The notes under the pieces are model-generated. The model made no database searches, was not told where the DNA came from, and worked only from the letters and a program-made list of their open reading frames with translations. The position numbers were made by a program, and so were the translations under genes. Below are positions 1 through 62,323 of a stretch of DNA of 64,000 nt, in pieces. Location of the stretch: NCBI GenBank assembly GCA_003024785.1, contig PUQB01000040.1:708522-772521 (forward strand). Reading direction: 5' to 3'. This stretch comes from Selaginella tamariscina (lineage: Eukaryota; Streptophyta; Lycopodiopsida; Selaginellales; Selaginellaceae). The first letter of the stretch is position 1. Each line of letters begins with the position of its first letter.

Positions 1-2
1 GA

Positions 3-2753: not shown

Positions 2754-2764
2754 GGAGGAGGTGC

Positions 2765-16117: not shown

Positions 16118-16128
16118 GGAGGAGGTGC

Positions 16129-33164: not shown

Positions 33165-35670
33165 AGATGATGGAGTGGACCACGCAGAACAAGCCGGTAA
33201 CCATCTAGCACGTTCGGGTGCGGTACGAGGGCCAAAATAGGAGCGTGGCGCTCGTGGCCCCCAGATTCTCCAGATTTTGAAGAGTTGATCAGCAAACCCA
33301 ACGTGCGAAGGGTGCGGAAGTAGATGCAACTGCTCAGACTTTTCAATGCCCCTTGGGGAGAAGTGGAGAAGCCCGGATTCATAGCGTAGGCCAGCCAATT
33401 CATCCAAACCGTACATCTGGAGATGGGGAAAACCAAGTGAGAGGAACTACGATTCAGATTAGGCGGCTTTGCGAGCTTCTACATCGATCTCAATCAGCTA
33501 GCCACAATGTTCTGTCTATAGGAAAATGGCACACTCTTGGACGACCTGGGAAAACCCAAACGCCAGTGGTTCCCCACCAACCAGGATGAAATTGCAATGT
33601 TCCGACTCTCCATATAGGAAGGGGATGAAGTGGACGAGTTCCTGGCGCTTACGGTGTTTATGTTCACTAGAAGGACAGAAAGGCGGGTCGCCACGCGACT
33701 AGCGAGCACCCTCTGCAGCGTCTGGGAAGGAGTCGTAGTGGACTGGGCAAATTGCCTCAGGCACTACATGATACCAGCCCTGACCCGCGGCATCAACGGG
33801 ATCCAAAAGGGAATCAGACAAAGGCTCACAACGGCGGGCCACTTCAGCGTGATGATCACCTGGATCGTCAACCGAAGCCTGATTCTCCTACCGGAGTAGT
33901 TCTACTCAGACACCATCAGGAATTGGGGGTAGGAGAACAAGCGGGCCCCAGCCAAACCAAAGAAGGGAAACAGCCGGACACTCTGGAGTCTTCGCAAAAA
34001 GTGCGAGAGAAGACTCCCCTGCGGAGCAAGCCAAGGGAAGAGGACCACAGGGAAAGGATCAAAGGGCCTCCACCACGGTGTCCCCACTAGCAGCTCTCGG
34101 AGCAGAGGCCCCACCAACCAAGGCCTGCGGAACACGGGGGAGTGCTCCGTCAGCCCCTCGCAGGTCAACGAAGGGAATAGCGAGGAGACACAGGCAACGT
34201 GCTAAAGGGACGTACAAATACTTCAACGCGAAGGGGCTATGGACCTCTACAGTGCATATGGATCTTTCCAAGGCCTTTGTTAAAGGTAAAATATTAGGAG
34301 CATAGGACGTCCTACTGTAGAGAGAATAAGGGTAGGAAGGTCCGTAGTAAGCATGGAAGGAAAGGCTGTGGAAGAGGAAAATCCTTACCAAGAGGAAAAG
34401 GTAAGGAAAAGGAAAAGGAAAAAGGTAAAGGATGACGTGGCGAGAGGAAGAGTAGTTAAGGGAAGTTAGGGCAACGAAGGAAGGGTCTCCATTTGAAGTT
34501 CTAGCAGGAGATAAAGGTTCTCTACACTTTGTCTTTTGTATTCATGTTAGTAATGAAAGGTGCATATTATAAGATCTTGTGTGTATGAATGTGTACTCTC
34601 AATGAATGGATCTAACAAGGCAATAGCCAAAATCCGTTCTTGCCCTTGACTTCGGAGACCAGTCATAGTGGCACTGGAAGAAGTCTGATATATATACAGA
34701 TATATTGAGAGTTGAGAAAGGAAAGGGTTGAGCCTTTCCTGTACATTGTATGAAAGGTTTCCTGTCTGCGTGAAGGAAACAAGTTAAATAGGAAAAGGTG
34801 AGGCAGAGAGCCCTTTTCCTGTTTAACAGCCTTCGGCCAAATCCGGAAGTCCATAGCGGTGTACAATGGGTTGGATCTCCCAGGGGTTATCACGGAGCAC
34901 GATGCAATAATACCAGGAGCTCACGGATAACTACCAAACCGCTCAAAAGGAGGCCCGAAAGTACTCGGACCAGCTTATCAAGGAAATCCACCTTTGGGAC
35001 ATCACGGAAGTCGAGAGGAAGCAAGTAAAGGAGACGTGTCAACAGTTAATCGATAACTTGGATCAGCTACAAATCAAGTATGACCACATCCAAAAGCTCC
35101 ACGACCAACTAGGACAGGAGTTTGAGCAGGTCACAGCGGAGAAGGAGCGATAGGTTTTGAGTTGGGATCCACACTTGAGCAACGTGAAGCAGAGCTCAGC
35201 TGGGTCCACCAAGAGCTGTCCGTGGCCAAAGAAGAGCTGAACAGAGCCACCAGTCAGCTCGAAATCATCCCCACATCTTCCTCAAAGAGACCCACGGCTG
35301 AGTCGTATGGAGCTCTGGTAACCATCTCCCCACTCGTGGAGTGCCAACCATTCAAAGAACTGTTGGACTCGGCACGAACCACCAGGGAGCTAGAAGTACA
35401 CACCCAGCTACAGGCCCAACTCCTCGTGGCAAGGGAATAGGAGCTGCAACACTCGCGAGAACGGGCACAGGACCTGGAGGGTTAGCTCAAGCAGGCTCGG
35501 AAGCAACAGGCAGGGTCCAAGGCAAAGCTCCGGAGGGTGATCACGCTACGGGAGGCGACCATCACCACATTAAAGACCACGCTAGCTGCAACAGAGAACG
35601 AAATTGCCATGTACTGGGAGCTCCAAGGGGCAGATGCCTAGAGCACATGGTCCGAGAACGTGCCAACGAA
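33165..35670 (+). pseudogene. B3 extra 3' ORF, interrupted by LTR C
   Basis: Third copy of the family's extra gene. Pieces: MMEWTTQNKPVTI (33168), VALVAPRFSRF (33248), GDEVDEFLALTVFMFTRRTE with CRHYMIPAL-like sequence (33620-33900), then after the inserted LTR SIAVYNGLDLPGVITEHDA (34850-34905) and a long Glu/Gln-rich coiled coil (34920-35660) with ELSWVHQELSVAKEELNRA and EVHTQLQAQLLVARE. The longest view of this protein: N-terminal globular part, central helix, C-terminal coiled coil of over 200 residues. No homology recognised. Confidence 0.5.
34273..34833 (+). mobile_element. Solo LTR of family C with perfect GCCTT target duplication
   Basis: LTR 34278-34828 (551 bp) begins TGTTAAAGG and ends CCTGTTTAACA, a 7-bp terminal inverted repeat with TG...CA ends, flanked by GCCTT at 34273-34277 and 34829-34833. 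B2 (reverse strand, near 21655-21670) has the empty site. No internal region remains, so the family cannot be placed; the ends and size suit a Ty1/copia or small Ty3 LTR. Its first about 170 bp recur at 60892. Confidence 0.88.
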
Positions 35671-36377: not shown

Positions 36378-37300
36378 ACAAGAAAACTAAATTAGCAATT
36401 TTTTTTAAAGATAAGTCTTTTTTGCTAAAAACAACTTGACCCTAAAATCAAGTTTATCCACATGAAAATTCTTGAGCAGTTTGTTAAGAAGAAATGAATA
36501 AGCTAGCTTCAAAACTTACATTATTTATTAACAAAGCATGTTATAACAAATTACAACCTACGTTTTGATTTTGTAAGTCATAAAGCGTGTTTTTATAACA
36601 GGTTTTGAAGTAAGACTTCACTGTGGGGTTGACGTGTATAATTCATTAATGTCCATGCCGTTCAATTTGAAATTAACGTATACCTCAATTATATATGCAT
36701 GCATGATATATATGTAGATGAATGAGCATAAGTGTATTTATATGTTGTTCTATAATGTGTGTGTGTGAGCGCGCGCGTGTGTGTATGTAATTAATTGAGG
36801 CTATTTTAGCTACCACTCTCTTGGCACTCCCAAGCGCGAAGTGAAGTGTACATGCGAACAGAAATAACATTTAATATTTGATATTACTTGGGTGTTTATT
36901 CACTTTTCAATATTGTTAATTTGTTAAATCGTTTAGGTCATAACTAAACACCCTTTCCAATATTCCTCATTTATTACACATTTAGGCTGGAATCTTGACA
37001 AGTTGGGTTTCCAATGGTTAATAAAAATATTGCAAAGGTTGGATGCTGCATACATCTTCGTCTTTATGATTTCGTTGTTGTGCCATTTGGTTGACTTTGG
37101 CCCAAATGATTTTTAAGAGCACGGTGAACAAACTTGTTAGAGAAATATGTTAGCTATCGCTGTTAGCTTTATCCATGACGGTGCTGTTTTAACTGTAGGA
37201 GCTGGTTCATAGGGCGACGGTCTCTTTTCCTTATGCACAACCATTCTTAGACTGAAACTGCTTTCCAAAGATTGGTTTGCTATTAAAATTCTAAGAAAAT
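36378..37300. other. AT-rich spacer with a small foldback
   Basis: No gene seen. At 36507-36610 a 104-bp segment starts CTTCAAAAC and ends GTTTTGAAG, a possible MITE or foldback without a clear target duplication. A short GTGTGTGTGAGCGCGCG run lies at 36758-36785. The segment may be original host sequence left of the D element. Confidence 0.35.
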
Positions 37301-37733
37301 ATGCAAGTTGTAACTAAGATGGGCATGGCTATAGTCCCATTTCTTAATAATTAGCAATTTTAGCTATTTAATTAGCATTTTCTAATATTAAAGGAATATT
37401 CTTTAGAATATATGTTTGAAAACAGAATATTCTTTAGAATATTCTATTTTGTATTCGACCCTTTAATAAATTATAGCATTCATTGAACAAAAATTAATAA
37501 CATTATAAAAGTAGAAGGTATTAAATTATATAATATATTGCCTAATATAACAATTAAGGAAGAGCATAAGAGGTACATTATAAATATTGATGTTGTTATT
37601 AAAATGTTAATATTTAAATATAACATTATTAATTAAAATTTGTAGTAGTAATATATAATATACAAAATCTTATAATAATATAGTTAATCTTCCATATCGT
37701 TTTTTAAATTTATATAGTTAAGTAAACAATTTG
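37301..37733 (+). repeat. Left terminal inverted repeat of D
   Basis: 433 bp, AT-rich, inverse of 51708-52142 and 61892-62323 with only scattered substitutions and short indels by eye. Its end is followed at 37734-37761 by a degenerate second copy of the first 28 bases (ATGCACGTTGTAACTAAAGTG...), i.e. a subterminal repeat of the very tip. Confidence 0.88.
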
Positions 37734-37761
37734 ATGCACGTTGTAACTAAAGTGGGCATGA

Positions 37762-38120
37762 TACGTGAAAATGGGAATATAAAATAAATTACTAATTAAT
37801 ACTTAAGTTTTAATTATTAATTAATCATTTAATTAATATGTAATTAAGCCTTAAATATTAATTAATTAATTAATTAATCCTTCAATAACCTTATTTAGTA
37901 AGGAATATTCCTAAAATATCTTAGAATATTCATATTATTCTAAAAATAGTTTACAATAATGAAGAAATACTATCAAACATAATTATAAATGAAATCATTT
38001 TCTTATCAATATGTTAATTTTTTTATAAATACTTTCTTCCTATCATACAAAGAAATCTTCTTATTTTGTCTAAATCATCACTCTCCGAATTAATCAAATC
38101 ATTTTGGTCAATATCTTGAT
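37762..38120. other. AT-rich spacer inside D
   Basis: TTAATTAA-rich sequence between the terminus and the phosphatase gene; it would carry the 3' UTR of the minus-strand gene. No ORF or motif is recognised. Confidence 0.5.
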
Positions 38121-38124
38121 GTTG

Positions 38125-39008
38125 TTACCACCACTTAACACTCTCACGAATGCAATTGGGAGTTGCAATCCTTGTTAATACATAAGATGTGATAAGAGAA
38201 GGTCTGCATAAAGGCTCATCTAAAAACTGACGTTCCTTAAGAATAAATATTAAAAGCACCCGGTTGCTATCCTTCATTTTATAAAATTCAATATCACGAG
38301 AAAGAAAAGCTTCAGGAAATTTATGATACGGTGGATACTGCTCACAAAAATTTTCGAGATTCTTCTTTCTGAGGCACGTATCCAAGTAGTTCACTAGCTC
38401 ATCCATGATATCGGTATCAGAATATGGATCGAAAGTGATTGGATGAATACAAGCAATGTTTTGGTTGAGCACAGCCTTCTGAGGAGAGTCGTCTACTACT
38501 AACATCTGTGCGTTCTTCATTATCCTTAAGCGACTGATCTCCCCATGAGTCCCAATTATTCTTTCATTCTTGAAGAAGTATAGCTGCTTTCCTTTCTTAT
38601 ATTGTGAAATTCTAGAGGTTTATAACATATTCGCTGGTCAAAAATCCAATCTTTACGAATCACCTCTTCTGCAACACTACAATGTTTCTTAAGTAAATTC
38701 AACAGCGGTGTTAAGTTATGAATATGCATGCATGACCAAATCCTCACAAGCGCACCCATCTCCTTAAGCTTTTGAAAGAGACGATCCAACCCTGGACGAA
38801 AAATAATATCATATCGAAATTTACCATGACAAGGAATGAAATCTCCTTGTTTGATTTTTTTTTTCCTATCCTCGGGCCTTTGTCGATGAAGCAGAACACC
38901 ATTGACATCCAACAACACAATATGGCCATGAGTAACATGAGATAGCATTGCCTCTTGAATACTTTGCATATCACTTGTTTGCTCCCTTTCACATTTATCC
39001 GTTGCCAC
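38125..39008 (-). pseudogene. FCP1/NIF-type HAD phosphatase, one frameshift
   Basis: Two overlapping minus-strand frames make one HAD protein. 39008-38610 carries motif I in HIVLLDVNGVLLHRQRPE and the FRPGLDRLFQKLKEMGALVRIWS block (motif II Ser region). 38600-38125 carries GKQLYFFKN and motif III/IV MLVVDDSPQKAVLNQ. The frame changes once near 38610-38620. Layout and the FRPGL and DDSP motifs fit the FCP1/SCP (NLI-interacting factor) family that removes phosphate from phosphoproteins such as the RNA polymerase II tail. The usual DxDxT is DVNGV here; Asn at the second position is known from a plant FCP1-like subgroup. An upstream exon may lie in 39009-39240. It is inside the transposon, so it is probably captured or co-opted cargo. 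Confidence 0.72.
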
Positions 39009-39467
39009 TATCTCGTTGCCTATCCCTTCATCATTTAATTGTACATCATCTTTACAAGATTCAGATATTGCATGCGCTAAGAAATTGATTTCGGAATTGA
39101 AGCCAATAAAAATGATGATGAAGTGGCCCCCATGGTAACGATGTTTTGAGCTGCATTATTATCCATTTCCTGCATGAACTCTGTCATTCTGACATGTGGC
39201 ACAAGAAATTGTCGCCAAACCCCTCTCTTACCTCATGCCAATGCTGAAAATCCATATTCTCAATTGTTTTATTACATTTGCAAAATGATAATTAGCTGAC
39301 CTTAAAATTATCAAGGTATATTATTTACCTTGTTAAATGTGTGACCCATGTTTGAACTAAAAGCTTCATTAATCCTTGAGAATTTATTTTCTGTACAAAT
39401 ATAAAAGAAATATACAAAAATGCCTTATGTTACACTCATTTACAACTATTCGTCACTCTACAATTCA
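39009..39467 (-). other. Spacer or upstream exon between phosphatase and methyltransferase genes
   Basis: The minus strand encodes LAHAISESCKDDVQLNDEGIGNEIVATDKCE running into the phosphatase frame from about 39090, so its N terminus may start further upstream through an intron. Beyond 39240 nothing is recognised. Confidence 0.4.
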
Positions 39468-42170
39468 TTACAATTCTTCTTTATTACCTTCTGAGTGAGG
39501 CGAAGAAGGTCTAAGCCGCTTGTGAGATGGTTCAAGATCTTCTGCATCTTCTATTGATGTTTCCATGGGTCCTGGAGTGTGCGAATGTTCTGTACTCCTC
39601 GAGATAACTTCCGGTCTAATATCTGATTGAAGTTCGTTCTCAGACTCCGAGATTGAACCAGATTCACCTTCAGAGCTATCGCACTTATCTGGAGGGAACT
39701 TTCTCAAATACGCCTTTATGGATTCGTTGGGGTACTCAGTTGAGACCCAATCTATCCACTTGTTCAGGTCCTCAACCATGGTCTTATCCTTTTCAACGGC
39801 AAACACACATGTATGCCGAAGGTAACACTCCTTCAAGACGGACCCCCTAGTGCAGTAGTCAAAAACCCACGCATCACTGTGAGGACCCCTGATCAAGTTG
39901 ACGATGCTCCGTGCCGCTTGACTTGTAATGTTTGGATAACGTACATTGCCGAATACGTCACTCACCTATCGGTGTATCGGATGGAGGTTCAGGGCCGTTG
40001 GAGTGCAAACAGATGCCTGGCCAGTCATTTGGAAGCTTGAAATTGTTTGGCGCATTCCTAACAACAAGTGAACAACGGTATCAATGCACTGGGATTAGCA
40101 TCGTTCATATAAATCCTGTCCAACGATGTCTATTCTTCTTGGCGAAGGCAAAATCGGTCGCAAGAATCAAGAAATAAATACCTGAAAAAGTAGGTATCAG
40201 TGAAGAGCGCAAGCATGAATTCAATAATAAATACCTTCTATGTATATGCTTGCACGGCTAAGTTTCTCCACCAGATCCTCTAGTGCCCTATCTGTCGAAA
40301 GATTTTTTGACACACCGCCGATCCATCACGAACAATTGAAACGGTTTCCTACAAGCAGTGATGTTTACCCCATAAAGTCTCCGAATCTAACAACAAACAT
40401 CTGTAGGGCTTGTCGTGATTCGTAGCATCCTCCTTTATAAGGTTCAATTCGGTTCTCCGCTGCTGAAGGACTGCCATAAGAGAAGGCGTCATCCCAATGT
40501 TCTCCTTTTTGGCGTTGGCGTGCAATAGATTCTTGCCTAGATCTTCCGATTGGTTCACCCATTCGACAAGCATATCATCGTTCGTCACATGCAAATATTT
40601 GCTGACCTCTTCATATGTTGAAGTCGAGGTCCAACCCAGTTTGTGGCAGTGTATTCCCAACCACTCCTTGAAATGCCTGACCGTCTTCAACTCCATTGCC
40701 TTGAGATGAAAAGGAGAGGTTGGGCTGCTGTTATTAATTTGTAGTTTGCCATCGATCACCAAATCAGCCAAGACTTCCATCTCCTCCATCGTTGTTCCAT
40801 TTAAAGGCTTCAACCATGTGAGCTTGAAATCGTTGTCTACATCCTTTGTAGATTGAACAGACTTAGCCTTCGGCGTCTTACTGGGTTTCTTTGCAGACTT
40901 TTCTGAGGGCTCCCCTTCACTTGTCTGCTTCTTCTTCAGTGTTCCTTTTGAAAAGGATTCCATAATCCCCAACCATTTGGCAAAGATCCTATCTTCGGGG
41001 CAAGAAATCAACATCATCAGAAAGGATGTTTCCTTCCCGCCCAAACAATTTGCTTACCCGGTAGTTCGCAGATTGTGTATTTCCTGCAGTAGCTCTTTGT
41101 GGTCGCTCAAGAGATTCCCACACGGCTCGCGTGTGTTTGAACTTCTCCCATATTTTACTATTGTAGTGGTTGGTGTCTGCAGCGTCCCATTCCGCCGATA
41201 ACTTATGGTACTACTCGATTGTGAGATTTGGCTTAGCTAAAAACGCCGATCTTTTTGTCAGCTTCTCACGGGTATGCTCGGAAAGTTTTGTTGCCATAGT
41301 TCCTTTGTTGTGTTCGTCGAGAAGTCGTTGGGCTGCCATTATTGTGTGCTGGCCACTAATGATGTAGTACTTGATAGATTTTTTATTCTCCGTCTGAATC
41401 TTCATGAGTTGTTCTGGTGTTGTGATCCAGACTTTGTCAGCGCCCTTCCTTCTTTCATAATATGGACATAAAACAGCATTATGTGGAACGGTATAAGAAT
41501 TGTCGTCCTTCATCTTCTCCATGAGCTCAGCTACACGTTCCTGGTTGAGTGGCCTGTAATTGAAGTTTGGGTTGACGCTGCAATATTTAACCCTACAAGG
41601 ATAAATCTTTTCATCCAACATCATTTCCTTGTGACTTATTGCAGCATGAGATGCCACAGGTGTAGCTGACAAAACGATTGATGATTTTCTTTTGTGATCC
41701 GAATCAACATGTGTGATCCCCGACTGCAGCTGTTCTAGTGTTCTCGGCACACTCTTCCAGCTCCCGAAGCTTCCTAAGCAAATTGAACGTGATCTGTAGA
41801 GAACCTGAGACCGAGCCACCCTCTCAATCTCCCTTATGATGTCGCTGTGTTCTTCTTCAATGTGAAGAGGGAAGATTGCTCCACTTGCTGATTTTCTGTA
41901 TTGTGAAGCAATATCTCCTGACAATACACCTACTCGATGAGTCTGAAGATCTTCGAAGTAGACATCCAGATTGGTCCCCTCCATAGATGGGCTTTCGTTG
42001 AGTTGAAGAAGAACTCCAAGGTCAACATCATTAGTGAACACGTGAACGTCATTATCCACAAGTCGACAAAACCACCCGAAATTAATGTTGTAACTGGCGA
42101 CCTCTGGATCCGAGAACGTGACATTGGATGGAACAAGGCATATGTGTCAAGCATCGTTCAATCTGGGTTC
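39468..42170 (-). CDS. ParB-like domain plus DNA methyltransferase-like protein, multi-exon or decayed
   Basis: Minus-strand gene in at least three coding blocks. Block 1 (42170-41211) holds an N-terminal unknown region then a ParB/sulfiredoxin-like domain: FNYRPLNQERVAELMEKM (about residues 166-183 of the 42059 frame) and YYIISGQHTIMAAQRLL (231-247), the position of the ParB GERR box. Block 2 (41140-40365) is a Lys/Ser-rich linker and a helical domain ending PYRCLLLDSETLW, where a methyltransferase DPPY-like motif would be expected. Block 3 (39965-39468) has SDAWVFDYCTRGSVLKECYLRHTCVFAVEKD, fitting the DxFxGSG plus ExD SAM-binding pattern of N4/N6 DNA methyltransferases, then an acidic Ser/Glu tail. 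DxFCxRGS lacks the canonical Pro and Gly, so activity is doubtful. 40050-40350 probably holds further exons. Exon limits are not established. Confidence 0.55.
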
Positions 42171-42601
42171 ACAGCATACTTTGGGATGCTTGACTAGCAC
42201 ACCCACTTTCCATTTGTTTTGCTTGTCCATGCGATGTAACAGAGGTTAGTTTGACAGCAACCATGGTTATTCCAATGCGCTTCCCGTTTAGTTTGAAATA
42301 TGGCCAAGTTGATTCCAAAATCCCGCTGCCCATCTCTTCTTTTGCTCTTGTCTTTAATGTCACCTCAATTCCACATCTGAATACAAAAATGATTAGTTCA
42401 AGTATCCGAGTATAACAGATTTTATTTTAATTCTTACCCAGAATTTGACGACGACTCCATACTAATGACTCGATCTCCTTGTTTGATCAAATCGTCTTTC
42501 TGTAAAATAATACACTATGAATACAAATCATATAAAAACGCACACACACTTGTATAAACCCGAATATATAAAATAATACACAGAGAGAAGTAGACATAAT
42601 T

Positions 42602-42688
42602 AACTGTCCGAAGCTCACATTTGTGCTAGTGCAAAAGAAAGATAACATTTCGTTTTAGAACCACCACAAATGTGAGCTCTGGACAGTT
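42602..42688. repeat. Hairpin-forming inverted repeat
   Basis: AACTGTCC plus AGCTCACATTTGTG on the left is mirrored by CACAAATGTGAGCT and GGACAGTT on the right, leaving a loop of about 40 bases. The copy in the inverted arm (60703-60783) keeps both arms despite loop differences, so the foldback is maintained. It lies upstream of the ParB-like/methyltransferase gene. Confidence 0.7.
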
Positions 42689-42794
42689 TTACATAGATCC
42701 CTAGCTTTTACTCGAAATATTATGATAAGATGATAAAAGTAAATAAAATGAGATATGCAACTTATATACTAATACACATATATATTCACATGGA

Positions 42795-44170
42795 AGGTGC
42801 AGTGGGATTAATCTCGCCACCCCTTCAATGCCTCCTGAAAGAGTGGGCGGGATTAATCTCGCCACCTTTCTGGAGGCCTTGAACGGGAGTGCGGAATTAA
42901 TTTTGCCACCCTTCTCGGTCTCAGAGAGAACTAGGCAGGATTATTTCTCACACCCCTTCAGTGACTCCAGAAAGGAGGCGGGATTAATTTTGCCCACCAT
43001 GTAAGGGATGGTTAAATGAATTTCCCCACCCTTCCCAATTCTCTCCATTGGTATGTTGTAAACCTTCTACGTCTCAGACAGAAACGTTTAGGATTGGTCC
43101 GACTCACCAATGGAGAAAAAGTGAAGGGTGGCGGGATTCATTTCTCCAATAGGCATTGAAGACTCAGCGGGATTAATCCCGCCGCCCAGGGCCTTCACTC
43201 GGTCCCTATGCAGCAGGATTAATCCTGCCGGACGCCAATTCCCTATGCGGAATCAGGTGGGATTAATCCCGCCGCCTAGGCACTTCACTTCAGGCGTAGG
43301 CGTGGGATTAATCCCGCTGAACGCCACCTTTCTCATTCTCAGAGAGAATTGGGCAGGATTTATTTTTCACACCCCTTCAGAGGTTCCGAAGGGGCGGCGG
43401 GATTAATCCCGCCCACCATGTAAGGGATGGTGAAATTAATCCCACCACCCTTCTCAGTTCCCTCCATTGGTATTTGTAAACCTTCTCCGTCTCAGACAGA
43501 GTTAGTCGGGATTGATTCAACATACCAATGGAGGAAAAAAGAAGGGTGGCGGGATTAATCCGCCACCGGGCAATGAAGGTTCGGAGAGATTAATCTCACC
43601 GCCCTCTCGTAAATCATGCGCTCACACATATATATTGGCTGCGGGATTAATCCCGCGGCATTTTCAACAGGGATGGGTGGGGGCAGGATTAATCCCGCCG
43701 CTTATATCCTGCGGAAGTGCCTGAGCGGCGGGATTAATCCCGCCGCCCTCCGCGAAGGGCATGAGCGTGGGGCGGGATTAATCCCGCCGTTCATGTCCTG
43801 CGTGAATTCCCTGGGCGGCGGGATTAATCCCGCCGCCTTACGCGCAAGACATGTGTGCAGGCTCTTCGGTTAGCCTTCCGTGCAGGATCTTTCATGCAGG
43901 CTCTTCGGTTAGCCTCATGAGCGGCGGGATTAATCCTGCCGCCCATCCCCTGTAAATGCCCTGCGCGGAATCCGCCGGGATTAATCCCGCCCATTAGGGC
44001 CTGCCTTCACACAGGCCATTGCCGGCGAATAAATCCCGCCGCATTCCACACAGGGCATGGGTGGGCGGCGGGATTAATCCCGCCGCTCTTCGGTTTGTCC
44101 TAGAGCGGCGGGATTAATCCCGCCGCCAAGGCCATAAACCTATAGCGGCGGGATTAATCCCGCCGCTCGA
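42795..44170. repeat. Palindrome cluster 1 (GGCGGGATTAATCCCGCC)
   Basis: About 25 copies of an 18-bp palindrome, perfect or near perfect, spaced about 35-70 bp apart with spacers that are mostly unrelated. Left copies are degraded (GATTAATCTCGCC, GATTAATTTTGCC); right copies (from about 43630) are mostly perfect and extended to GCGGCGGGATTAATCCCGCCGC. Two longer foldbacks, CCACCCTT...CCATTGGT with its inverse, lie at about 43026-43131 and 43446-43551. Confidence 0.92.
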
Positions 44171-44189
44171 GGGCTTAGCGTGTGTGAGA

Positions 44190-44639
44190 GAGATAAAATT
44201 AATAAATAAAAAATTATACAGATAAAAACACACACATATATATGTGTGTGTGTATATATATATATATATATGTATGTATAGGAGTGTACGTGTGTGTGCA
44301 AGAGATAGATAAATAAATAAAATTATACAGTACTGGTACACATAATATATGTGTGTACATAGGTATATATATGTGTGTATATGTATATCGTGTATATGCA
44401 TGTGAGCGAAACAAATAAAATCATACAGATAAACAAACACACACACACACATATATATACACAGGAGTGTGCGTGTGTGTGCGAAAGATAAAACTATTAA
44501 ACAAATAAAATTATACAGATAAACACACACACATATATGTGTGTATATAGATATAAACCCATAGAGAAAGAGAGAGAGTCTGTGAATATATAAGCATATA
44601 TATAAACTAGTGTTATATACTATTTGTTAATATGCATTG

Positions 44640-44675
<36 letters not shown>

Positions 44676-45028
44676 AAGCAGTGTGCGTGTGTGTGGGAGA
44701 GATAGATCAATAAAAAAATTATATAGATACTGGTACACATAATATATGTATGTATATATGTATATAAGTATATATATGTGTATATGTATATTGTGTGTAT
44801 GCGTGTGTGAGCGAAACAAATAAAATCATATAGATAAACAAACACACACACACACATATATATATACACAAGAGTGTGCGTGTGTGTGCGAGAGATAAAA
44901 CTAATAAATAAATAAAATTATACAGATAAACACACACATATATATATGTGTGTATATAGATATATAACCCATATGAATATAAGCATATATATAAACTAGT
45001 GTTGTATACTATTTGTTAATATGCATTG

Positions 45029-45071
<43 letters not shown>

Positions 45072-45336
45072 AAGCAGTGTGCATGTGTGGGAGAGATAGA
45101 TCAATAAAAAATTTTTTATAGATACTGGTACACATAATATATGTATGTATATATGTATATAGGTATATATATATATGTGTATATGTATATCGTGTGTATG
45201 CGTGTGTGAGCGAAACAAATAAAATCATACAGATAAACAAACACACACCCACACCACATATATATACACAGGAGTGTGCGTGTGTGTGCGAGAGATAGAT
45301 CAATAAATAAAATTATACGCACACTCCTATACATAT

Positions 45337-45367
<31 letters not shown>

Positions 45368-45370
45368 GAT
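44190..45370. repeat. AC/GT and AT microsatellite block with tandem copies
   Basis: Low-complexity (TG)n, (AC)n, (TA)n DNA organised as imperfect copies of about 300-400 bp: the block GTGTGCGTGTGTGCGAGAGATA...AAATCATACAGATAAACAAACACAC recurs near 44290, 44465, 44870 and 45270. Open reading frames here are artefacts of the repeat. Confidence 0.85.
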
Positions 45371-45419
45371 CTCACATGTGTGCACAGCCGCTGCTGCCGA
45401 TTTCACAGCCGCCGCCTCT

Positions 45420-46300
45420 TGAAACCCTAAGAATATACCTAAACCCTAAAGAATTAAATATATATATTAACCCTAATAGAATATTCCTTCTGAGAATATA
45501 CTTAAACCCTAAAAAGAATAAAATATAGATTCGCCCTAAACAAATATTCTTTCATTATATTATTAGTGCGTGCGTGTGCGTGGGTGTATTACATACACCC
45601 AAAAATATAAATCATGCAGGGATTTAACATGTGTGTGTCCATGAGAGTGTTAAAGTTTCATGATCAATACATACATACACATTGCATATATTAATACACA
45701 TAATATATACATACACACGTGTATACACACAGACATACATACATATTACATGGGTTTAGGGTTTAGGGTTTAGGGTTTTGGATTTAGGATGGATCATGCA
45801 TGGTGTGTATGTATGAGAGAAGAGAGAGTGTTACTTACACATATTATACACAGATATACATACATAGTATATGAGAGAAGAGAGACAGTACATATTATGG
45901 ATCATGCATGGTGTGTATTATACACACAGACATACATACATATTAGTACATAATATTAAAGAGACCGAGTACATATTATAGATCATGCATGGTGTGTATG
46001 TTTGAGAGAAGAGAGACAGTACATATTAACATGGATCATGCATGGTGTGTATGTATGAGAGAAGAGAGAAAGTACACATATATACATATAGAGTACACAT
46101 ATATACATACACACGTGTATACACACAGACATACATACATATTACATGAGTAAATTCATTGTGTTACATATTAGGGGTTTAGGGTTTAGGGTTTAGGATG
46201 GATCATGCATGGTGTGAAGAGAGAGTGTTGAAAAATTATTTTTGTACACACATGTATACACAGGGTTTAGGGTTTAGGAGTTTGCAGGTATTTGCCACAC
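45420..46300. repeat. Interstitial telomere-like TTTAGGG runs and GGATCATGCATGG repeats
   Basis: Short runs of the plant telomere unit: GTTTAGGGTTTAGGGTTTAGGG at about 45754-45776 and about 46175-46195, plus single AAACCCTAAA motifs near 45422-45450 and 46262-46315. Between them a unit GGATCATGCATGGTGTGTATG...AGAGAAGAGAGA recurs at 45789, 45898, 45980, 46031 and 46198. The inverted arm has the same features at 57660-58230. Confidence 0.8.
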
Positions 46301-47890
46301 ATTTAGGGTTTACTCCAACAAGCTTATATAAATATTACACATGTAAATTCAATGTGTTACATACACACAGATTGAGTACATATATATATATGCGTTGAAC
46401 ATGATGTTTTCAATAAAGAAGCAACATATTTCTTCAGTTTGGTTTAGGGTTGTGCATGTGTGTGCATATGTGTTTTTGTAAGTTCTTGTAATGCGTGTGT
46501 AAATTTATGATTGTGTTTATATATGTGTGCAAAACAAACATCGAATAATTAAGAAAATAATATTAATAAACACACTATGAACATATTTTAAATTATACAT
46601 AATAATATATGATTTTATCTAATATATAGCCATATATAGTTTTAATAATATATATTAATTTAATATTGATAAAAAGGTTTAACATTGAAATATTCTTGAA
46701 ATAATAAGAAATTAATTGAGAAAATCCCATTAATATATACAAATGTAAATTAAGTACTCAAATAATTAACTAAATTAATTATCATAATCATGTTTAATAT
46801 TGGAATATTCTTGGAATAATAAGAAAATAATAAAGAATATCCCATTAATATAAAGAAGATTAATTACTCAAGTAATTAAGGAAATGATATTAATATACAC
46901 ACTATGAACATATTTTAAATTATACATAATAATACATCATTTTATCTAATAATAGTCATATATAGTTTTAATAATATATATTAATTTAATATTGATAATA
47001 AGGTTTAACACATGAATATTCTTGAAATAATAACAAATTAATTGAGAAAATCCCATTAATATATACAAATGTAGAATAATTACTGCAATAATTAAGAACA
47101 AGACTAATTTAATTATGATAATCAGGTTTAATATTAGAATATTCTTCAAATATTAATAAAATAAAAGAATATCCCATTGATACTAGGAAATGAAAACTAA
47201 ATACTCGAGTAATTAAGAAAATAATAATAATAAACAGACTATGAATATATTTTAAATGATACATAATAATATCAATTTATTTATTGTATAAGTATATATT
47301 TATATATATATATAATATAAATATACTTGAATACTAAGAATGTAGAATATAGTCTAAAATTTCGTAATATTAAACAGCTTGAATCACTTGAATAACATTA
47401 AATGCAATTTTAAAATACTCATTGGAACTGGAGAGTATATATGTCAGAGTGTCGGATATTTGTGTCAACTCATCTTAAATTTTATTTTCTGTTCTTTTTA
47501 AAAAATTTGAATTTCTGACATATGTATTGTCGGTCTGACATGTAAATTTGAAAATGCATTTAATTTCCCACTCAAATTCAGATCTGGTTCTTTCTCCGGC
47601 AAGGGTTTCTTCATTTCTGTATTTTTCACTCTTTAGATCTTCTTTTTTCTTCATAGTGATCATCTCAGGAGCGAGATTAAATTGGGTGCTATTCTTTATA
47701 GGAAAGCACGGCGCCTTCAGTGCTGTTTACAAGTAAGTATTATAAACAAATTTAAAAATACTTATAAAGATTCACTCTCTTACATTCTCTCTTAAAATTA
47801 CAATTTAGGGGTTTAGGAATGCATTAGGATTATAATATATTCCGTTAGGGATTTATCCCGTTTAAATATCCTTTTAACTTAATATTCTAG
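46301..47890. other. AT-rich spacer inside D, no gene
   Basis: Long AT-rich tract with three related stretches (starting near 46610, 46900 and 47210) containing TTTTAAATTATACATAATAATA and AATATTCTTGAAATAATAAG, i.e. a tandemly repeated unit of about 300 bp. 47480-47750 is less AT-rich and mirrors 56460-56760. No coding sequence is supported. Confidence 0.6.
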
Positions 47891-47897
47891 GTTAACC

Positions 47898-48370
47898 GGG
47901 GCGGCGGGATTAATCCGGCCATTTCTTTTTCGCCTCTTCGAAGAGGTGGCGGGATTAATCCCGCCACCATCTCTCGGGCAATGCTTCTCCGCCACTGAAA
48001 AAGAGTGGCGGGATTAATCCCGCCGATAACCTTCTCAACTGATGAAGAGTTACCAGAATTTATTAGAAAGAGTTGTCGGCGGGATTAATCCCGCCAACCA
48101 TTTTAGGAGGCAGGGAAGGGGTGGCGGGATTAATCTCGCCACCACTCCCTGTTTTAAGGATTTGGGGACAGGATTTATCCCGAGATCTCTTTGAAATCAT
48201 AGTTTTGGAGAGAGTTATGTGCGGGTTTAATCCCCCACATTCCGTCGTAAGAATTGTGGGCGGGATTAATCCCGCCGACTCTCTCCGAAGGGGTTGAGTC
48301 GGCGGCGGGATTAATCCCGCCGACCGTTCCTCGTCGGAGGGATTCGTGGGCGGGATTAATCCCCCATCAG
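47898..48370. repeat. Palindrome cluster 2, upstream of the transposase
   Basis: About 10 copies of GGCGGGATTAATCCCGCC or close variants over 470 bp, ending about 150 bp before the transposase start. Its inverted counterpart is cluster 3 (55405-56305), which has about twice the copies. Confidence 0.92.
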
Positions 48371-48518
48371 TTGTATTAATCAAACATGAGATATTATCTC
48401 TAAACATAATTATGTATTATTGCATATGCATATTATTAAGTAACCGTAATTCAGATTTCTTAGAAATATTGCATAAACAGATATCATAAATAATACAATT
48501 ATTTATGTGCAGGACAAT

Positions 48519-51428
48519 ATGTTTAATACTGGAGATAAAGTATGTCTTCTTCGGAACAACGAGATAGTTGGCACTGGAACTGTGGAAGTTCGAGATAATA
48601 ATGCATCATGTCACAATATTGCCCAAGGATCTTGTGTGTACGTATGGGTGAACACCATTTACAAGCATGTTGAGGTTCTGGGAATGGAATTTGAGGAGGG
48701 TTCTCCTGTATTGTGGAATTTGGATGAAGTCAAGGCTGACACAGAATATGCAGAGTCACAAACAAATAGTAGCACGAGTTTACCAGATGATGGCTTGCCT
48801 GCTGTGATGGATGAGGTGATTCTCTTTCTTCGTGAGATTGAAGTCGGAAGAGGCATCATCACAGCTATAAATCCAATGGAAGCAGTGTCAGAAGAGAAAC
48901 TAGGGTCCGACTTCGTGGGTGTAGTTGTGACAGAGGTTTCACCTAATGGCACATTGTATCCTGGATCCCTCGTGAGGTGGCGAACATCTGAATTAAGACG
49001 GCAAGATGGTTCAACATATTCTGGGTTGGATTTCAATAATAACAACCCGGAAGAACAACTCATATTTGAAGAGGTTCCTTGCATTGGTCCTATTGTAAGA
49101 AAAAGGCGATTCATGGGTTGTAGATCTTCCCCTGCAAGTTTCAGCAAGAGGGTAAAGATGGATCCTACATCTTCCGAAAGTGTTACGAGCATTTCCACGA
49201 TTGACTGTTGCAAGAAGAAGTGTTGTCAGATGGCAGACCGGAATGAAATTACCCAATGTAGACATGTCTTTCGTATGCTCACCCAAAAGCAAAGGCATGA
49301 GTTTGTATATGCTGCACTAACTGGGTGTATTGATGGAATGGCCTCGGACACAGGTTATCAGAGTACATCCATGGTATTTAATAAGGTGGCCATCTGCTTC
49401 AAAGCTTGGTACAGTATATACGGGATCCCAAAGACCACGTTCTACCGTCGGAGGGATGAGTGGCTAGATGGAGCGCGAACCTCAGTTCATGGGAACACTC
49501 GCTTGGTCAAAACCCGCTCTCACATCATGGCAGCCATAGAGATACTCAAGGCTTTTGTGGAAGCAAATGCAGACAGGATGCCTCACAAATGCCGAACCAC
49601 AAATGCAGGGGTCAGGGAAAATCTCAAGGTTTTGCCTTCAATCTACACTCAATTGAAGCTGTGTGAACATGTGAACAAGTGCCTCAGTTTGATGGGGCTC
49701 CAAGCAATCTGCACTGGTACCTTCAACAACATATGGAATACTCATTTTAAGGATGTGGAGATTGCAAAACACTCTAGCTTTTCCAAGTGTGACACTTGTA
49801 CATCATTGAAGGCTGCAGAGGCTTGTGCAAAAACCTTGGTGGAGATCACTACCATTCAAAAGAAGATGGAGGCCCACATGATTGCACAACAAACTTGCCG
49901 GTCTCAGTACTATGCACACCGCATGCTTTCTGTGTCACGCCCATCAGAGTACCTGTGCTTGATCCATGACAAGATGGATCATTCAAAGACCAGCATTCCA
50001 AAGCTCTTTGCAACACCAAAGTGCCTTGGAAATGTCATGAAACTTCCGATTTCATTGACAGGTGTGCTAACACATGGACACGGTTGTGAGTCATATGGAC
50101 ACTTTTCACTTCCACATTGGTCTAGCGACTCCAATTTCACTATTGGGTCGTTAGCCATGTGTTTCAGAAACCTTGAAGCCCACTCACAGACAAGTCCTAT
50201 CAGTGATCTCAAAGTGAAGAAACAACACCTTCAACCTTTACATAATGCTCTCATGAACACGTCTGCACTTGAGGCTACTTGGGAATATGAGAGGCATTGT
50301 CAACAGCCTGCACAGAAAACAGATGGCCCTGTTGAGAGTTCTGGTTCAGTGGAGGGATCTAGCTCAAATAGTGTACATGTGTCCTCAACATCAAATAAGC
50401 TTCCTCGTCATTTGCTTTTACAGATGGATAATTGTGCAGGCGAGAACAAAAATAGGTAAATCATTTTACTTAAGGGTTTCTCAAGCTCATACTTACTTTT
50501 ATTTTCTAGATATGTGCTAGCATACTTGTCAATGCTTGTTGCCAAAGGTGTGTTTGAAACAATCACGCTCAGTTTCCTTATGGTTGGTCACACTCATGAA
50601 GATATTGATGCGTTCTTCAGCAAGGTCTCCAACTCTACAAAAAGGACAAGTGCACTTACTTTACCGCATATGATGAATCTTTTTGAAAATTGCATCTCCA
50701 AAAAAAGTTGTGCTTTGCTTGTGACTGAGGTGCCAGACTTCAAAAAATTTCTCAAGGAGTATATAAAAGAAGGGAGTGATTCTTTAGTTGGTCACCTTGT
50801 GCCGCTACAATTCTTTTTCTCCATACGAGATGGTATACCTATTATGCAGTACAAGTTACGGCCATCAGAGCAGGAGTGGTTACCGAAAGAGGGCTTAATG
50901 CTCTTCAAAAGTGGAGAGGATGGAAAGCCACTTCTCCCAGAAGGACAACCAGACCCTATTCCATTGAGTGCCCAGCTCAAGGAACAAGAGGTTATTATTG
51001 ATGGCATCAAAAAATATGTGGCATGGGTTCAAAAATCGATGCCAAAGAATTCTGATAAGGCAACTGGTTACTCAGAACTATATAAGCATGTGGTCGACTA
51101 TTGGGAGACTGTTGTTCGAGAGTTGGAAGGGCCTACTGTCACAAGTACAGAATTGCAACACCCTTTCTGGCCTAAAACAAGGTGGCGAGAGGAGATTGAA
51201 ATGACATCACTGAGCATAGACGACATAGAAGCCAGTAGTGATGTGGAAGTGCAAACCCCACACTTTGTTGGACAAAGGAACCAAAAACCTAAAGCATACT
51301 TTGATTGTTGCCAGGATCTTCAAAAACTAATGATGGTTCTCATTACTCCAGATGCGTCATATAATCAGCCTATTTGGATGGGTCAAATTATCGACACACC
51401 TGAAGTAATCACAAAAAATAATTGTTAA
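48519..51428 (+). CDS. DUF7869-type transposase of element D, copy 1 (one intron, 3' frameshift)
   Basis: Join 48519-50455 and 50510-51428. In-frame ATG is 48519 (VTGDKVCLL-like start MFNTGDKVCLL); AG just before 48513 could also be an acceptor for an earlier exon. Intron: AATAG/GTAAAT...TTTCTAG/ATATGTG, 54 bp, restores ENKNRYVLAYLSML. Domains: N-terminal region with a Cys cluster CKKKCCQMADRN and QCRHVF (49208-49270), a helical segment with SIYGIPKTTFYRRRDEW (49415-49463), zinc-like FSKCDTCTSLKAAEAC (49779-49830), then a DDE-like core: LIHDKMDHSKT (49958), LLLQMDNCAGENKN (50415-50454), GHTHEDIDAFF (50585-50617). The D...D...GHTHED pattern is that of the DUF7869 family (RNase H-like transposase by inference). 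A C-terminal module PIWMGQIID...VAWFKP resembles a small chromatin-reader fold. A 2-bp loss near 51420, relative to copies 2 and 3, ends the frame about 60 residues early. Confidence 0.8.
50456..50509 (+). other. 54-bp intron in the transposase
   Basis: GTAAATCATTTTAC...TATTTTCTAG. The same segment with intact borders is in the inverted copy (53345-53398). Removing it joins the second catalytic Asp region to the GHTHED region in frame. Very short for a plant intron. Confidence 0.75.
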
Positions 51429-51634
51429 GGTTGCATGGTTCAAACCACAAAAAAGGCGACACGAGAAGGAGAGCGAAAGATATAATGGATGCCTAGAGAA
51501 AACATGGTCTCCCAATCAAAAAGACCCAGCATGTTTTATAAATGTTAAATCCATTCGATATGGGTGGATGTCAAGAAGCGTTGATAAAGTCACGATTAAC
51601 AAAACTGCAAGGGAATGTATGTTTTCTGAAGCTT
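51429..51634 (+). pseudogene. Out-of-frame transposase C terminus, copy 1
   Basis: Encodes IVKVAWFKPQKRRHEKESERY and INVKSIRYGWMSRSVDKVTI up to a TAA at 51634, in a frame shifted by two bases from 50510-51428. In copy 2 (minus strand, 52218-52733) the same residues are in frame. Confidence 0.85.
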
Positions 51635-51707
51635 AAAGCAATTACAAAATTATAAAATATCATATATTTAATATTCATAATTATTATAAACTCTTTAATA
51701 ATAGTAC

Positions 51708-52142
51708 CAAATTGTATACTTAACTATATAAATTTAAAAAATGATATGGAAGATTGACTATATTATTATAGGATTTTATATATATATTATTATACTACAA
51801 ATTTTTAATTAATAATGTTATATTTAAATATTAATATTTTAATAACAACATCAATATTTATATAATGTACCTCTTATGCTCTTCCTTAATTGTTATATTA
51901 GGCAATATATTATATAATTTAATACCTTCTACTTTTATAATGTTATTAATTTTTGTTCAATGAATGCTATAATTTATTAAAGGGTAGAATACAAAATAGA
52001 ATATTCTAAAGAATATTCTATTTTCAAACATATATTCTAAAGAATATTCCTTTAATATTAGAAAATGCTAATTAAATAGCTAAAATTGCTAATTATTAGG
52101 AAATGGGACTATAGCCATGCCCATTTTAGTTACAACTTGCAT
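51708..52142 (-). repeat. Right terminal inverted repeat of D, at the centre of the giant palindrome
   Basis: 435 bp, reverse complement of 37301-37733, ending GTTACAACTTGCAT at 52142. Directly after it (52143) the inverted second copy begins without its own terminus. It is therefore the unpaired loop of the large inverted repeat. Confidence 0.9.
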
Positions 52143-52217
52143 TTTGGTACTATTATTAAAGAGTTTATAATAATTATGAATATTAAATATATGATATTTT
52201 ATAATTTTGTAATTGCT

Positions 52218-55404: not shown

Positions 55405-56305
55405 ATGGGCGGGATTAATCCTGCCACAGACTCTACCCCTTATGAGTGAGTTGGCGGGATTAATCCCGCCGTCGACTCTACCCCATCGAATAGAGTCGGC
55501 GGGATTAATCCTGCCGCGGTACTTCCTTGTCGGAGAGAGGCGGCAGGATTAATCCTGCCGCAGACTCCCTCCGACGAGGAAGTACCGGCGGGATTAATCC
55601 TGCCGCGGGCTCCCTTCGATGAGGAAGTACCGGCGGGATTAATCCCGCGTAGGCTCCCTCCGACGAGGAAGTACCAGCGGGATTAATCCCGCCGCGGGCT
55701 CCCTCCGACGAGAATGTACCAGCGGGATTAATCCTGCCACGGGCTCCCTTCGACGAGGAAGTACCAGCGGGATTAATCCCGCCGCCGGATCTTCCTCGTC
55801 TGTGAGAGTTGGCGGGATTAATCCCGCCGCAAATCCCTCCAACAAGGAAGAGGGAGCGGGATTAATCCTGCCCACAACACTGACGATGGAGAATAGGCAG
55901 CGGGATTAATCCCACCCACAACTCTGACGACGGGGAATAAGCGGCGGGATTAATCCTGCCCACAACTCTCTCCAAAACTATGATTTCAAAGAGATTCGGG
56001 ATGAATCTTGCTCACAAATATTTAAAATAGGGAAGTAGTGGCGAGATTAATCCCGCTACCCCTTCTCTGCCTCTTAAAATGATTGGCGAGATTAATCCCG
56101 TCGATAACTCTTTCTAATAAATTTAAGTAAATCTTTATCAGTTAAGAGAGTTATCGGCGGGATTAATCCCGCCGCTCTTTTTAAAAGGCGGAAAAGCATT
56201 GCCCGAACTAATTCTGCCATAGCTATCAAAGAGATGGTGGCGGAATTAATCCTGTCATCTCTTAAAAGAGGCGAAAAAAAATGGCCGGATTAATCCCGCC
56301 ACCCC
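55405..56305. repeat. Palindrome cluster 3
   Basis: About 20 copies of GGCGGGATTAATCCCGCC and variants. From 55560 to 55790 the palindrome lies in a regular tandem unit of about 46-47 bp with the spacer GGCTCCCTCCGACGAGGAAGTACC, showing local tandem expansion not present in cluster 2. Confidence 0.92.
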
Positions 56306-59757: not shown

Positions 59758-60580
59758 TAGCGGCGGGATTAATCCCGCCGCTATATGGTGAGACGTGTGT
59801 AGCGGCGGGATTAATCCCGCCACCTACGGATGCCCTGTGCAGAATCCGGCGGGATTTATCCCGCCGCCAATGGCCTATCTGAAGGGCCTAGGCAGCGGGA
59901 TTAATCCCGCCGGATTCCGCACAAGGCATTGGCGTCCGATGGGATTAATCCCGCCGGGTACGCAGCCTTGCGCGGAATCGAGCGGGATTTATCCCGCCGC
60001 CAAAGGCCTGCCTGAAGGGCCTAGGCGGCGGAGATTAATCCCACCCGATTCTGCGCAGGGCATTGGCGTCCAGCGGGATTAATCCCGCCGCCTAAGGCCC
60101 GAGTGAAGGGCTTGGGCAGCAAGATTAATCCCGCTGCCTTGCACGGAATTCGGTGGGATTAATCCCGCTGCCTAAGGCCCAAGTGAAGGGCCTGGGCAGC
60201 GAGATTAATCCTGCCGAGCCTTCAATGCTTATTGGAGGAATGAATCCCGCCACCCTTTCCTTTTTTCTCCATTGGTGAGTTAGACCAATCCCAAACGTTT
60301 TTGTCTGAGATGTAAAAGGTTTACAACATACCAATGGAAGGGACTAGGAAGAGTGGCGAGATTCATTTCACCGTCCTTTACATGGTGGGCGAGATTAATC
60401 CCACCGCCTTTCTGGAGTCACTGAAGGGGTGTGCCAAATAAATCCTGTCAAGTTCTCTCTGAGACCAAGAAGGGTGGCAAGATTAATTCTGCACTTCCGT
60501 TCAAGGGCTCCAGAAAGGTGGCGAGATTAATCCCGCCCACTCTTTCAGGAGGCATTGAAGGGTGGCAAGATTAATCCCGC
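59758..60580. repeat. Palindrome cluster 4
   Basis: About 17 copies of the palindrome. The best are at the left (59760-60110) and become degraded to the right (GATTAATCCCGCT, GATTCATTTCACC), the mirror image of the quality gradient in cluster 1. The CCATTGGT foldback is at about 60240-60350. Confidence 0.9.
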
Positions 60581-60783: not shown

Positions 60784-60891
60784 TTCCGTCCACTTCTCTC
60801 TGTGTATTTTTTTATATATTCGGGTTTATACAAGTGTGTGTGCATTTTTATAAGATTTGTATTCATAGTGTATTATTTTGCAAAAGGACGA

Positions 60892-61058
60892 TGTTAAAGG
60901 TAAAATATTAGGAGCATAGGACATCCTACTGTAGAGAGAATAAGGGTAGGAAGGTCTGTAGTAAGCATGGAAGGAAAGGTTGTGAAGAAGGAAAATCCTT
61001 ACCAAGAGGAAAAGGTGAGTAAGGAAAAGGAAAAGGTAAAGGATGACGTGGCGAGAGG
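60892..61058 (+). mobile_element. 5' fragment of LTR C at the element D breakpoint
   Basis: Starts exactly at the LTR C terminus TGTTAAAGG and matches 34278-34452 with few changes, then switches to transposase sequence at a shared GAGTGGTTA/GAGTAGTTA. The rest of the LTR and any right flank are gone, so an LTR C insertion was later cut by a deletion. Confidence 0.85.
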
Positions 61059-61822
61059 AAGAGTGGTTACCAAAAGAGGGCTTAATGCTCTTCAAAAGTG
61101 GAGAGGATGGAAAGCCACTTCTCCCAGAAGGACAACCAGACCCTATTCCATTGAGTGCCCAGCTCAAGGAACAAGAGGTTATTATTGATGGCATCAAAAA
61201 ATATGTGGTATGGGTTCAAAAATCGATGCCAAAGAATTTTCATAAGGCAACTGGTTACTCAGAACTATATAAGCATGTGGTCAACTATTGGGAGACTGTT
61301 GTTCGAGAGTTGGAAGGGCCTACTATCACAAGTACAGAATTGCAACACCCTTTCTGGCCTAAAACAAGGTGGCGAAGGAGATTAAAATGACATCACTGAG
61401 CATAGACGACATAGAAGCCAGTAGTGATGTGGAAGTGCAAACCCCACACTTTGTTGGAAAGGAACCAAAAACCTAAAGCATACTTTGATTGCTGCAAGGA
61501 TCTTCAAAAACTAATGATGGTTCTCATTACTCCAGATGCGTCATATAATCAGCCTATTTGGATGGGTCAAATTATCGACACACCTGAAGTAATCACAAAA
61601 AATAGTATTGTTAAGGTTGCATGGTTCAAACCACAAAAAAGGCGACACGAGAAGGAGAGTGAAAGATATAATGGATGCCTAGAGAAAACATGGTCTCCCA
61701 ATCAAAAGACCCAGCATGTTTATAAATGTTAAATCCATTCGATATGGGTGGATGTCAAGAAGCGTTGATAAAGTCACGATTAACAAAACTGCAAGGGAAT
61801 GTATGTTTTCTGAAGCTTAAAG
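61059..61822 (+). pseudogene. Transposase 3' end, copy 3
   Basis: Direct copy of about 50874-51634 beginning in EWLPKEGLMLFKSGEDGK. The frame is open to 61390, lost by a deletion (GGCGAAGGAGATT at 61372), then open again 61424-61732 including the C-terminal junction KNSIVKVAWFKP, i.e. without the 2-bp loss of copy 1. A 1-bp loss near 61707 follows. It lacks the catalytic core. Confidence 0.85.
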
Positions 61823-61891
61823 CAATTACAAAATTATAAAATATCATATATTTAATATTCATAATTATTATAAACTCTTTAATAATAGTAC

Positions 61892-62323
61892 CAAATTGTA
61901 TACTTAACTATATAAATTTAAAAAAATGATATGGAAGATTGACTATATTATTATACGATTTTATATTATATTATTACTACAAATTTTTAAATAATAATGT
62001 TATATTTAAATATTAATATTTAATAACAACATCAATATTTATATAATGTACCTCTTATGCTCTTCCTTAATTGTTATATTAGGCAATATATTATATAATT
62101 TAATATATTCTACTTTTATAATGTTATTAATTTTTGTTCAATGAATGCTATAATTTATTAAAGGGTAGAATACAAAATAAAATATTCTAAAGAATATTCT
62201 CTTTTCAAACATATATTCTAAAGAATATTCCTTTAATATTAGAAAATGCTAATTAAATAGCTAAAATTGCTAATTATTAGGAAATGGGACTATAGCCATG
62301 CCCATTTTAGTTACAACTTGCAT
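61892..62323 (-). repeat. Outermost right terminal inverted repeat of D
   Basis: 432 bp, inverse of 37301-37733, ending ACAACTTGCAT followed by ATGATTGG. With the left end (AAAAT before ATGCAAG) this gives a 2-bp AT (or TA) repeat at the two outer edges. Confidence 0.88.

Follow-up and report, generated by a model that had tools for sequence, protein, structure and literature searches.

The 64,000-nucleotide stretch of Selaginella tamariscina DNA analyzed here (GenBank assembly GCA_003024785.1, contig PUQB01000040.1) carries two near-identical sequences of about 434 bp in opposite orientation, and the question raised by this locus is whether they are the termini of a single transposon and what the genes between them contribute to it. 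We refer to the whole stretch as the window (C727:708522-772521 of its own genome), and all coordinates below are window positions. The original prediction was of a 14.8-kb DNA transposon with terminal inverted repeats (TIRs) that carries a DUF7869 transposase, a “ParB-like/methyltransferase” gene and a HAD phosphatase. Our analysis indicates, with a probability of about 0.85, that the locus holds one copy, termed A (positions 37734-52142, forward strand, 14,409 bp), of a cut-and-paste DNA transposon family that is large and has amplified recently. The assignment to TIR DNA transposons is upheld by 27-bp TIRs, by collinear copies elsewhere and by 4-bp target site duplications. A DUF7869 gene, a NIF/HAD phosphatase gene and two palindrome clusters are indeed all present between the inverted arms, together with a multi-exon gene for what we call the orphan protein. 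The order is left end, phosphatase gene (minus strand), orphan gene (minus strand), array 1, AT-rich spacer, array 2, transposase gene (plus strand) and right end, and element length in the family is about 14-15 kb.

The inverted pair (37298-37733 and 51708-52145, 96.1% identity over 440 columns) and the unit that it brackets are real, but the ends had been misplaced: the true left end is at 37734, and the TIRs span 27 bp. A third occurrence of the ~434-bp end lies at 61892-62325. The 27-bp motif ATGCA[A/C]GTTGTAACTAA..TGGGCATG occurs four times in the window, twice on the plus strand (from 37301 and from 37734) and twice on the minus strand (with ends at 52142 and 62323), and never in 100 shuffles. 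The left (37734-37760, plus strand) and right (52116-52142, minus strand) TIRs of copy A match at 25 of 27 positions, and the termini of the element read ATGCA..TGCAT.

A search for further copies of the 434-bp terminus, proposed with the original prediction, was conducted across the genome (300.7 Mb in 1391 contigs), and the best 40 of 2263 first-look candidates were scored. Among the 41 matches listed, 40 show 96-100% identity and one shows 81%. Many copies were thus found, but the terminus proved to be a right end only. At each of the seven loci fetched from elsewhere in the genome, the 434 bp directly adjoin the 3′ part of the transposase gene, and what lies beyond ATGCA varies from locus to locus, so that the segment (51709-52142 in copy A, plus strand) represents one right subterminal region rather than a terminal repeat. 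Ten right ends were then traced 20 kb inward (20 stretches). Eight of these copies (C866, C835, C495, C247, C852, C720, C794 and C586) are collinear with window positions 37734-52142, including both extra genes. The transposase, phosphatase and orphan genes therefore travel together, which answers the question on which the original prediction had staked itself. C738 retains the left end, the phosphatase gene and part of the orphan gene before jumping to the region preceding the transposase, and in C645 the left half is absent within the 20-kb stretch traced.

Target site duplications of 4 bp flank seven of the ten copies with two readable ends: TTTG for A (37730-37733 and 52143-52146, plus strand, by flank comparison), TAAC for C835, ATAA for C495, ATCC for C247, TATT for C720, CAAT for C794 and AGTA for C738. 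The collinear copies and flanking duplications define A as 37734-52142 and place its insertion point 434 bp inside the right end of another copy, B, which has the opposite orientation. When the B flanks are rejoined with one TTTG, the resulting 887-bp empty site aligns unbroken, at 96-97% identity, to the right ends of all four copies tested. An element of 14.8 kb with the 434-bp repeats as genuine long TIRs, as the 96% identity of the two arms would suggest, is extremely improbable, given the single right end seen at seven of seven other loci, the eight of ten copies whose limits correspond to 37734 and 52142, and the duplication and unbroken empty site belonging to A itself. The locus exposes a trap, in that insertion of one copy close to the end of another mimics long terminal inverted repeats.

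The right end of copy B (37301-37733, minus strand) was recognized from its repeat match, flanks and the empty-site alignment, and is cut off by A from the rest of B. The remainder (minus strand), assigned by repeat match, palindrome cores and the same alignment, resumes at 52147 and extends to 60892, contains the transposase gene and palindrome cores at 55412-56287 and 59766-60156, and is truncated before the extra genes. A third-copy fragment at 61054-62323 (plus strand) comprises the transposase 3′ part and a right end and is 97.7% identical to A. Between truncated B and this fragment, 186 bp at 60884-61069 match a long terminal repeat (LTR) element (92% to 34270-34458) and resemble filler DNA at a repaired break. 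C794 also adjoins a transposase-end fragment of another copy, and nesting of this kind therefore recurs. C866 (L003, at C866:50226) ends against sequence 90.6% identical to window positions 40978-39493, a match suggesting that it sits within another family member's orphan gene.

Exact left ends number 1146 in the genome (581 + 565) and exact right ends 1094 (575 + 519), while the reversed-pattern controls gave none. The same genome contains a LEAFY gene, with one match compared to none in 14 control genomes. The DNA-binding part of its product scores highest against 4bhk (317 bits), followed by 9fwy and 9g19 (about 294 bits each), 2vy1, titled PROTEIN LEAFY (281 bits), and 8s8q (167 bits), and the gene points to a host among the land plants or their near streptophyte relatives. 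Pairing of the 100 left ends listed with 88 of the 100 right ends listed, by spacing only and with the content between ends unread, yielded 47 pairs in the proper orientation no more than 30 kb apart, of which seven are spaced at 7.1-11.9 kb, nine at 17.8-29.2 kb and 31 at 13.65-15.38 kb. In plants, large DNA transposons usually survive for the most part as short derivatives produced by deletion. Here, 30 different left ends fall in the last of these classes, meaning that 30 out of the 100 listed retain an exact right-end partner at full-length spacing, and the long form thus seems to be the mobile one. Across 66 pairwise comparisons of the last 1.9 kb in 12 copies, a sample chosen by similarity, the median substitution difference is 0.74% (range 0-1.6%). 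For copies this similar (loci L009-L028), small insertions or deletions (2-13 per copy) are unexpectedly frequent in proportion to substitutions. They probably reflect sequencing or assembly error, and many of the frameshifts in the copies may have this origin.

The transposase belongs to DUF7869, as originally predicted. Its exons (48519-50455 and 50510-51428, plus strand), delimited with Pfam and homologue alignment, are separated by a GT-AG intron (50456-50509) and match DUF7869 at E values of 1.8e-12 and 2e-25, respectively. The frame of exon 2 stops earlier in A than in copy B. Eight homologues, at 28-36% identity, conserve the motifs HDKMD, DN..NKN and GHTHEDID. In the spliced 951-residue product of A, HDKMD and MDNC begin at residues 483 and 636 (exon 1) and HEDID at residue 675 (exon 2), and the acidic residues of these three motifs constitute a candidate DDD triad. 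For exon 1, the median ratio of nonsynonymous to synonymous change (dN/dS, by NG86 here and below) is 0.20 in 22 pairs.

These features bear on where the family belongs. CACTA (En/Spm) elements have CACTA-type termini, and the termini observed here exclude that group. En/Spm elements possess subterminal repeats bound by TNPA, and the present family resembles them in carrying many copies of a short repeat in a plant transposon (protein-bound there, putatively so here) and in that a transposase homologue, P0001, matches the TNP1 domain PF03017 with 19.9 bits, just under the 21-bit cut-off. However, the palindromes here form two internal arrays before genes rather than residing in the ends, and neither the termini nor the 4-bp duplications are CACTA-like. 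KDZ elements (Zisupton, Dileera and Kyakuja) are excluded by duplications of 7-8 bp as given in an excerpt of PMC12730594, and Mutator/MULE elements by the 7-12-bp duplications and often long TIRs described in an excerpt of PMC10741241, compared with 4 bp and 27-bp TIRs here. The nearest case of a DNA transposon with an accessory gene beside its transposase is provided by the fungal TET/JBP-bearing transposons Dileera, Kyakuja (KDZ), Plavaka, hAT7, IS3EU and PHISTA, with target duplications of 8, 7, 2-3, 7, 6 and 2 bp, respectively, although their accessory gene encodes a dioxygenase and their hosts are fungi, not plants (PMC12730594, same excerpt).

The best reading is a Sola-like DNA transposon that carries new accessory genes together with an operator-like array, although the superfamily is unproven. 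Sola is suggested because of the 4-bp duplications (seen in seven of ten copies), the possible DDD triad, the length and the presence of this superfamily in a moss. Sola elements, including Sola1 of Physcomitrella, are described in excerpts of PMC10741241 and PMC9033089 as DDD-type, with 4-bp duplications, variable TIR length and sizes up to more than 15 kb. The likeness is one of description rather than of compared transposase sequences, and the triad on our side is suggested by motifs. In the same excerpts there is no mention of a phosphatase or orphan gene as accessories, or of an array of phased palindromes. The earlier statement that no named plant superfamily has this gene set is doubtful, since the duplications, possible triad and size suit Sola.

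Each of nine copies scanned contains two arrays of GGCGGGATTAATCCCGCC, one before each of two divergent genes, with sites mostly 44-45 bp apart. A site scan of copy A for CGGCGGGATTAATCCCGCCG, allowing up to 5 mismatches, locates 21 sites upstream of the orphan gene (array 1, 42800-44165) and eight sites that lie ahead of the transposase gene, some 150 bp from its start (array 2, 47902-48367), neither array having an assigned strand. The same scan finds 28-41 sites per copy and 307 in nine copies, compared to 0.05 per copy expected from shuffles of copy A. The two-block layout is present in all nine, six of which also contain a single isolated site. Among the 282 intersite distances shorter than 200 bp, 100 fall in the 44-45-bp peak, and the spacing is free of codon periodicity (98, 93 and 91 in the three phases). 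All 44 ten-base cores in the window lie within 37301-62323. Genome-wide, the exact 18-bp palindrome occurs 27,128 times and its reversed-pattern control not once. The array region retains only 49-79% identity to A in four of five copies (79-95% in C852, a close copy), while the gene region retains 91.6-99.6% in seven of seven. Fast turnover in which core and position are nevertheless kept is a stronger hint of function than core conservation, which is inflated by selecting sites through their core.

The phosphatase gene (38125-39008, minus strand) is split in A by a frameshift into open reading frames (ORFs) at 38556-39008 and 38125-38520. The HAD assignment made originally was correct, since the gene matches the Pfam NIF domain PF03031 (E 1e-8 in A), and a 388-residue stop-to-stop frame at L029:3820-4983 matches it at E 6.3e-11 with 42.6 bits against a cut-off of 21.8. 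At least 150 matches at 89-99% identity were found. Phosphatases of the NIF/FCP1 type carry the catalytic motif DxDx(T/V). This motif is absent from the element phosphatases, which have DxN instead of DxD in LLDVNGVLL (DVNG in all 12 sequences read, DING in C738). The gene, whose catalytic motif is altered, may be of host type and acquired by capture, and would act as an accessory with a possibly regulatory role. In the element on C673 (L032, L044), synonymous divergence (dS) from A is 0.177 in the orphan ORF (41211-42059) and 0.036 in the phosphatase (38556-39008), about five times lower, a hint that the phosphatase segment spread or was exchanged later.

The orphan gene (39468-42460, minus strand) was delineated from ORFs and copy comparison, with exon limits that are inferred rather than RNA-based: a small first exon beginning near 42460, a large exon containing the ORF at 41211-42059, a third within 40349-40988, and one or more last exons from about 40180 to 39468. 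In A this gene and the phosphatase gene are broken by small frameshifts or stops, and other copies have longer open frames. At least 140 matches to the orphan ORF, at 86-100% identity, were found, many of them in a 478-residue open frame. Profile searches of all three proteins, another suggestion of the original prediction, matched DUF7869 and NIF. For the orphan protein, no relative or family was found in Pfam, PHROGs, NCBIfam, a profile comparison with PDB sequences or homologue searches.

The “ParB-like/methyltransferase” designation is not sustained. Its sole ParB-like feature is a motif, YYIISGQHT, that resembles ParB by eye, and no ParB domain was matched at E values up to 10 in Pfam, PHROGs and NCBIfam or by profile in PDB sequences. 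A single-sequence structural model has a predicted local distance difference test (pLDDT) score of 33.5, too low to read a ParB/Srx fold. DNA adenine and cytosine-N4 methyltransferases carry the catalytic motif [DNS]PP[YFW]. The methyltransferase label was rejected, as PP[YFW] is absent from the three open frames of L031 and no such family was matched in Pfam, PHROGs or NCBIfam. The orphan ORF yields dN/dS values of 0.24-0.37 in 15 of 15 pairs that compare L032, L033 and L040 with A, L031, L041, L042 and L043, and the third exon yields 0.09-0.15 for C794 versus A, L029 and L031. The former ratios hint at constraint on the orphan ORF between subfamilies.

We propose that the DUF7869 transposase would cut at the 27-bp ends and join the element to its target with a 4-bp stagger. 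On the phased arrays, a DNA-binding protein would dock as a dimer and set expression of the two divergent genes in the manner of an operator or enhancer, and it would perhaps spread or pair along the element. That the arrays dock such a dimeric regulator is a prediction to which we give slightly less than an even chance. The orphan protein, apparently constrained and encoded beside array 1, would be the first candidate binder, although this more specific assignment is a long shot. An equally speculative extension, drawn by analogy, is that the orphan protein represents a new DNA-binding family that loads onto phased palindromes as ParB does onto parS. If this were true, a single protein encoded by the element would have ~27,000 binding sites in more than 1000 dispersed copies, which could thereby be switched together, gather within the nucleus or influence host chromatin, and the phosphatase would be the signalling partner. 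A gene that shows hints of constraint and has no found relative, combined with an 18-bp palindrome present 27,128 times and phased ahead of the element's genes, makes transposon self-regulation and the spread of regulatory sites directly testable.

Several observations weigh against this account. Copies were selected by similarity to A, which over-represents young ones, and C866, C852 and C586, among the ten copies with two readable ends, lack a 4-bp duplication. A DDE fold of the transposase has no structural support, the model of homologue P0001 having a pLDDT below 50 at residues 517-806. Transposase exon 1 is unbroken in only two of 13 sequences (A and C738); the small indels hint at assembly error as the cause of broken frames, but this is unproven. 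Its dN/dS reaches 0.91 against the L029 fragment, and exon 2 has a median of 0.55 (15 pairs). For the orphan gene, the third exon has a median of 0.35 (12 pairs) and 0.76 for C586 pairs, the last exon has 0.62 (two pairs), and the ORF gives 0.56-0.98 for L038 versus all others and 1.4-3.1 among L034, L035, L036, L037 and L039 (L035 and L039 being identical). Frame-shifted runs are present in the alignment of these high-ratio sequences (the L034-L039 set). Constraint on the phosphatase is beyond judging, with dS of ~0.03-0.04 and listed dN/dS values of 0.08-1.28, and no observation ties the orphan protein to the palindrome.

Such ratios, near or above 1 in some orphan-gene pairs, and the undemonstrated constraint on the phosphatase would be expected if both genes were chance-captured passengers without function for the element, and plant transposons often capture host genes. 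Retention of both genes in eight of ten copies and the uniformly low ratios in the 15 pairs between two subfamily groups make this quite unlikely. The palindromes might alternatively be bound by a host factor, for example of the E2F type, which would confer S-phase expression on the element and leave the orphan protein with another role. The half-site, TCCCGCC, is identical to the core of E2F sites, plants have E2F proteins, and the arrays stand before both genes. However, E2F sites usually have TTT or ATT before CCCGCC, where AAT is found here, and the perfect 18-bp palindrome with its fixed ATTAAT center suggests one symmetric dimer. A literature search combining E2F and GGCGGGA with transposons gave nothing useful among the matches listed, and we consider E2F-type binding tentative and somewhat unlikely. 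Variation in site number between copies and the rapid divergence of the array region could also reflect a satellite within the element, growing through unequal exchange and devoid of any binding function. We regard a satellite origin as unlikely, since two blocks, one per gene, persist in nine of nine copies and information in the 307 sites is 1.1-2.0 bits per position in the 18-bp core but below 0.52 bits between sites, a contrast inflated by the choice of sites through core match. Docking of a dimeric regulator on the arrays remains the reading that we prefer.

The first part of the window is also rich in repeats. Positions 1-36377 are occupied by nested LTR-like repeats, including 3.4-kb direct repeats at 1-3408 and 13380-16774 that are 97.7% identical, along with further repeat copies in both orientations and tandem repeats of the TCCTG/CAGGA type.

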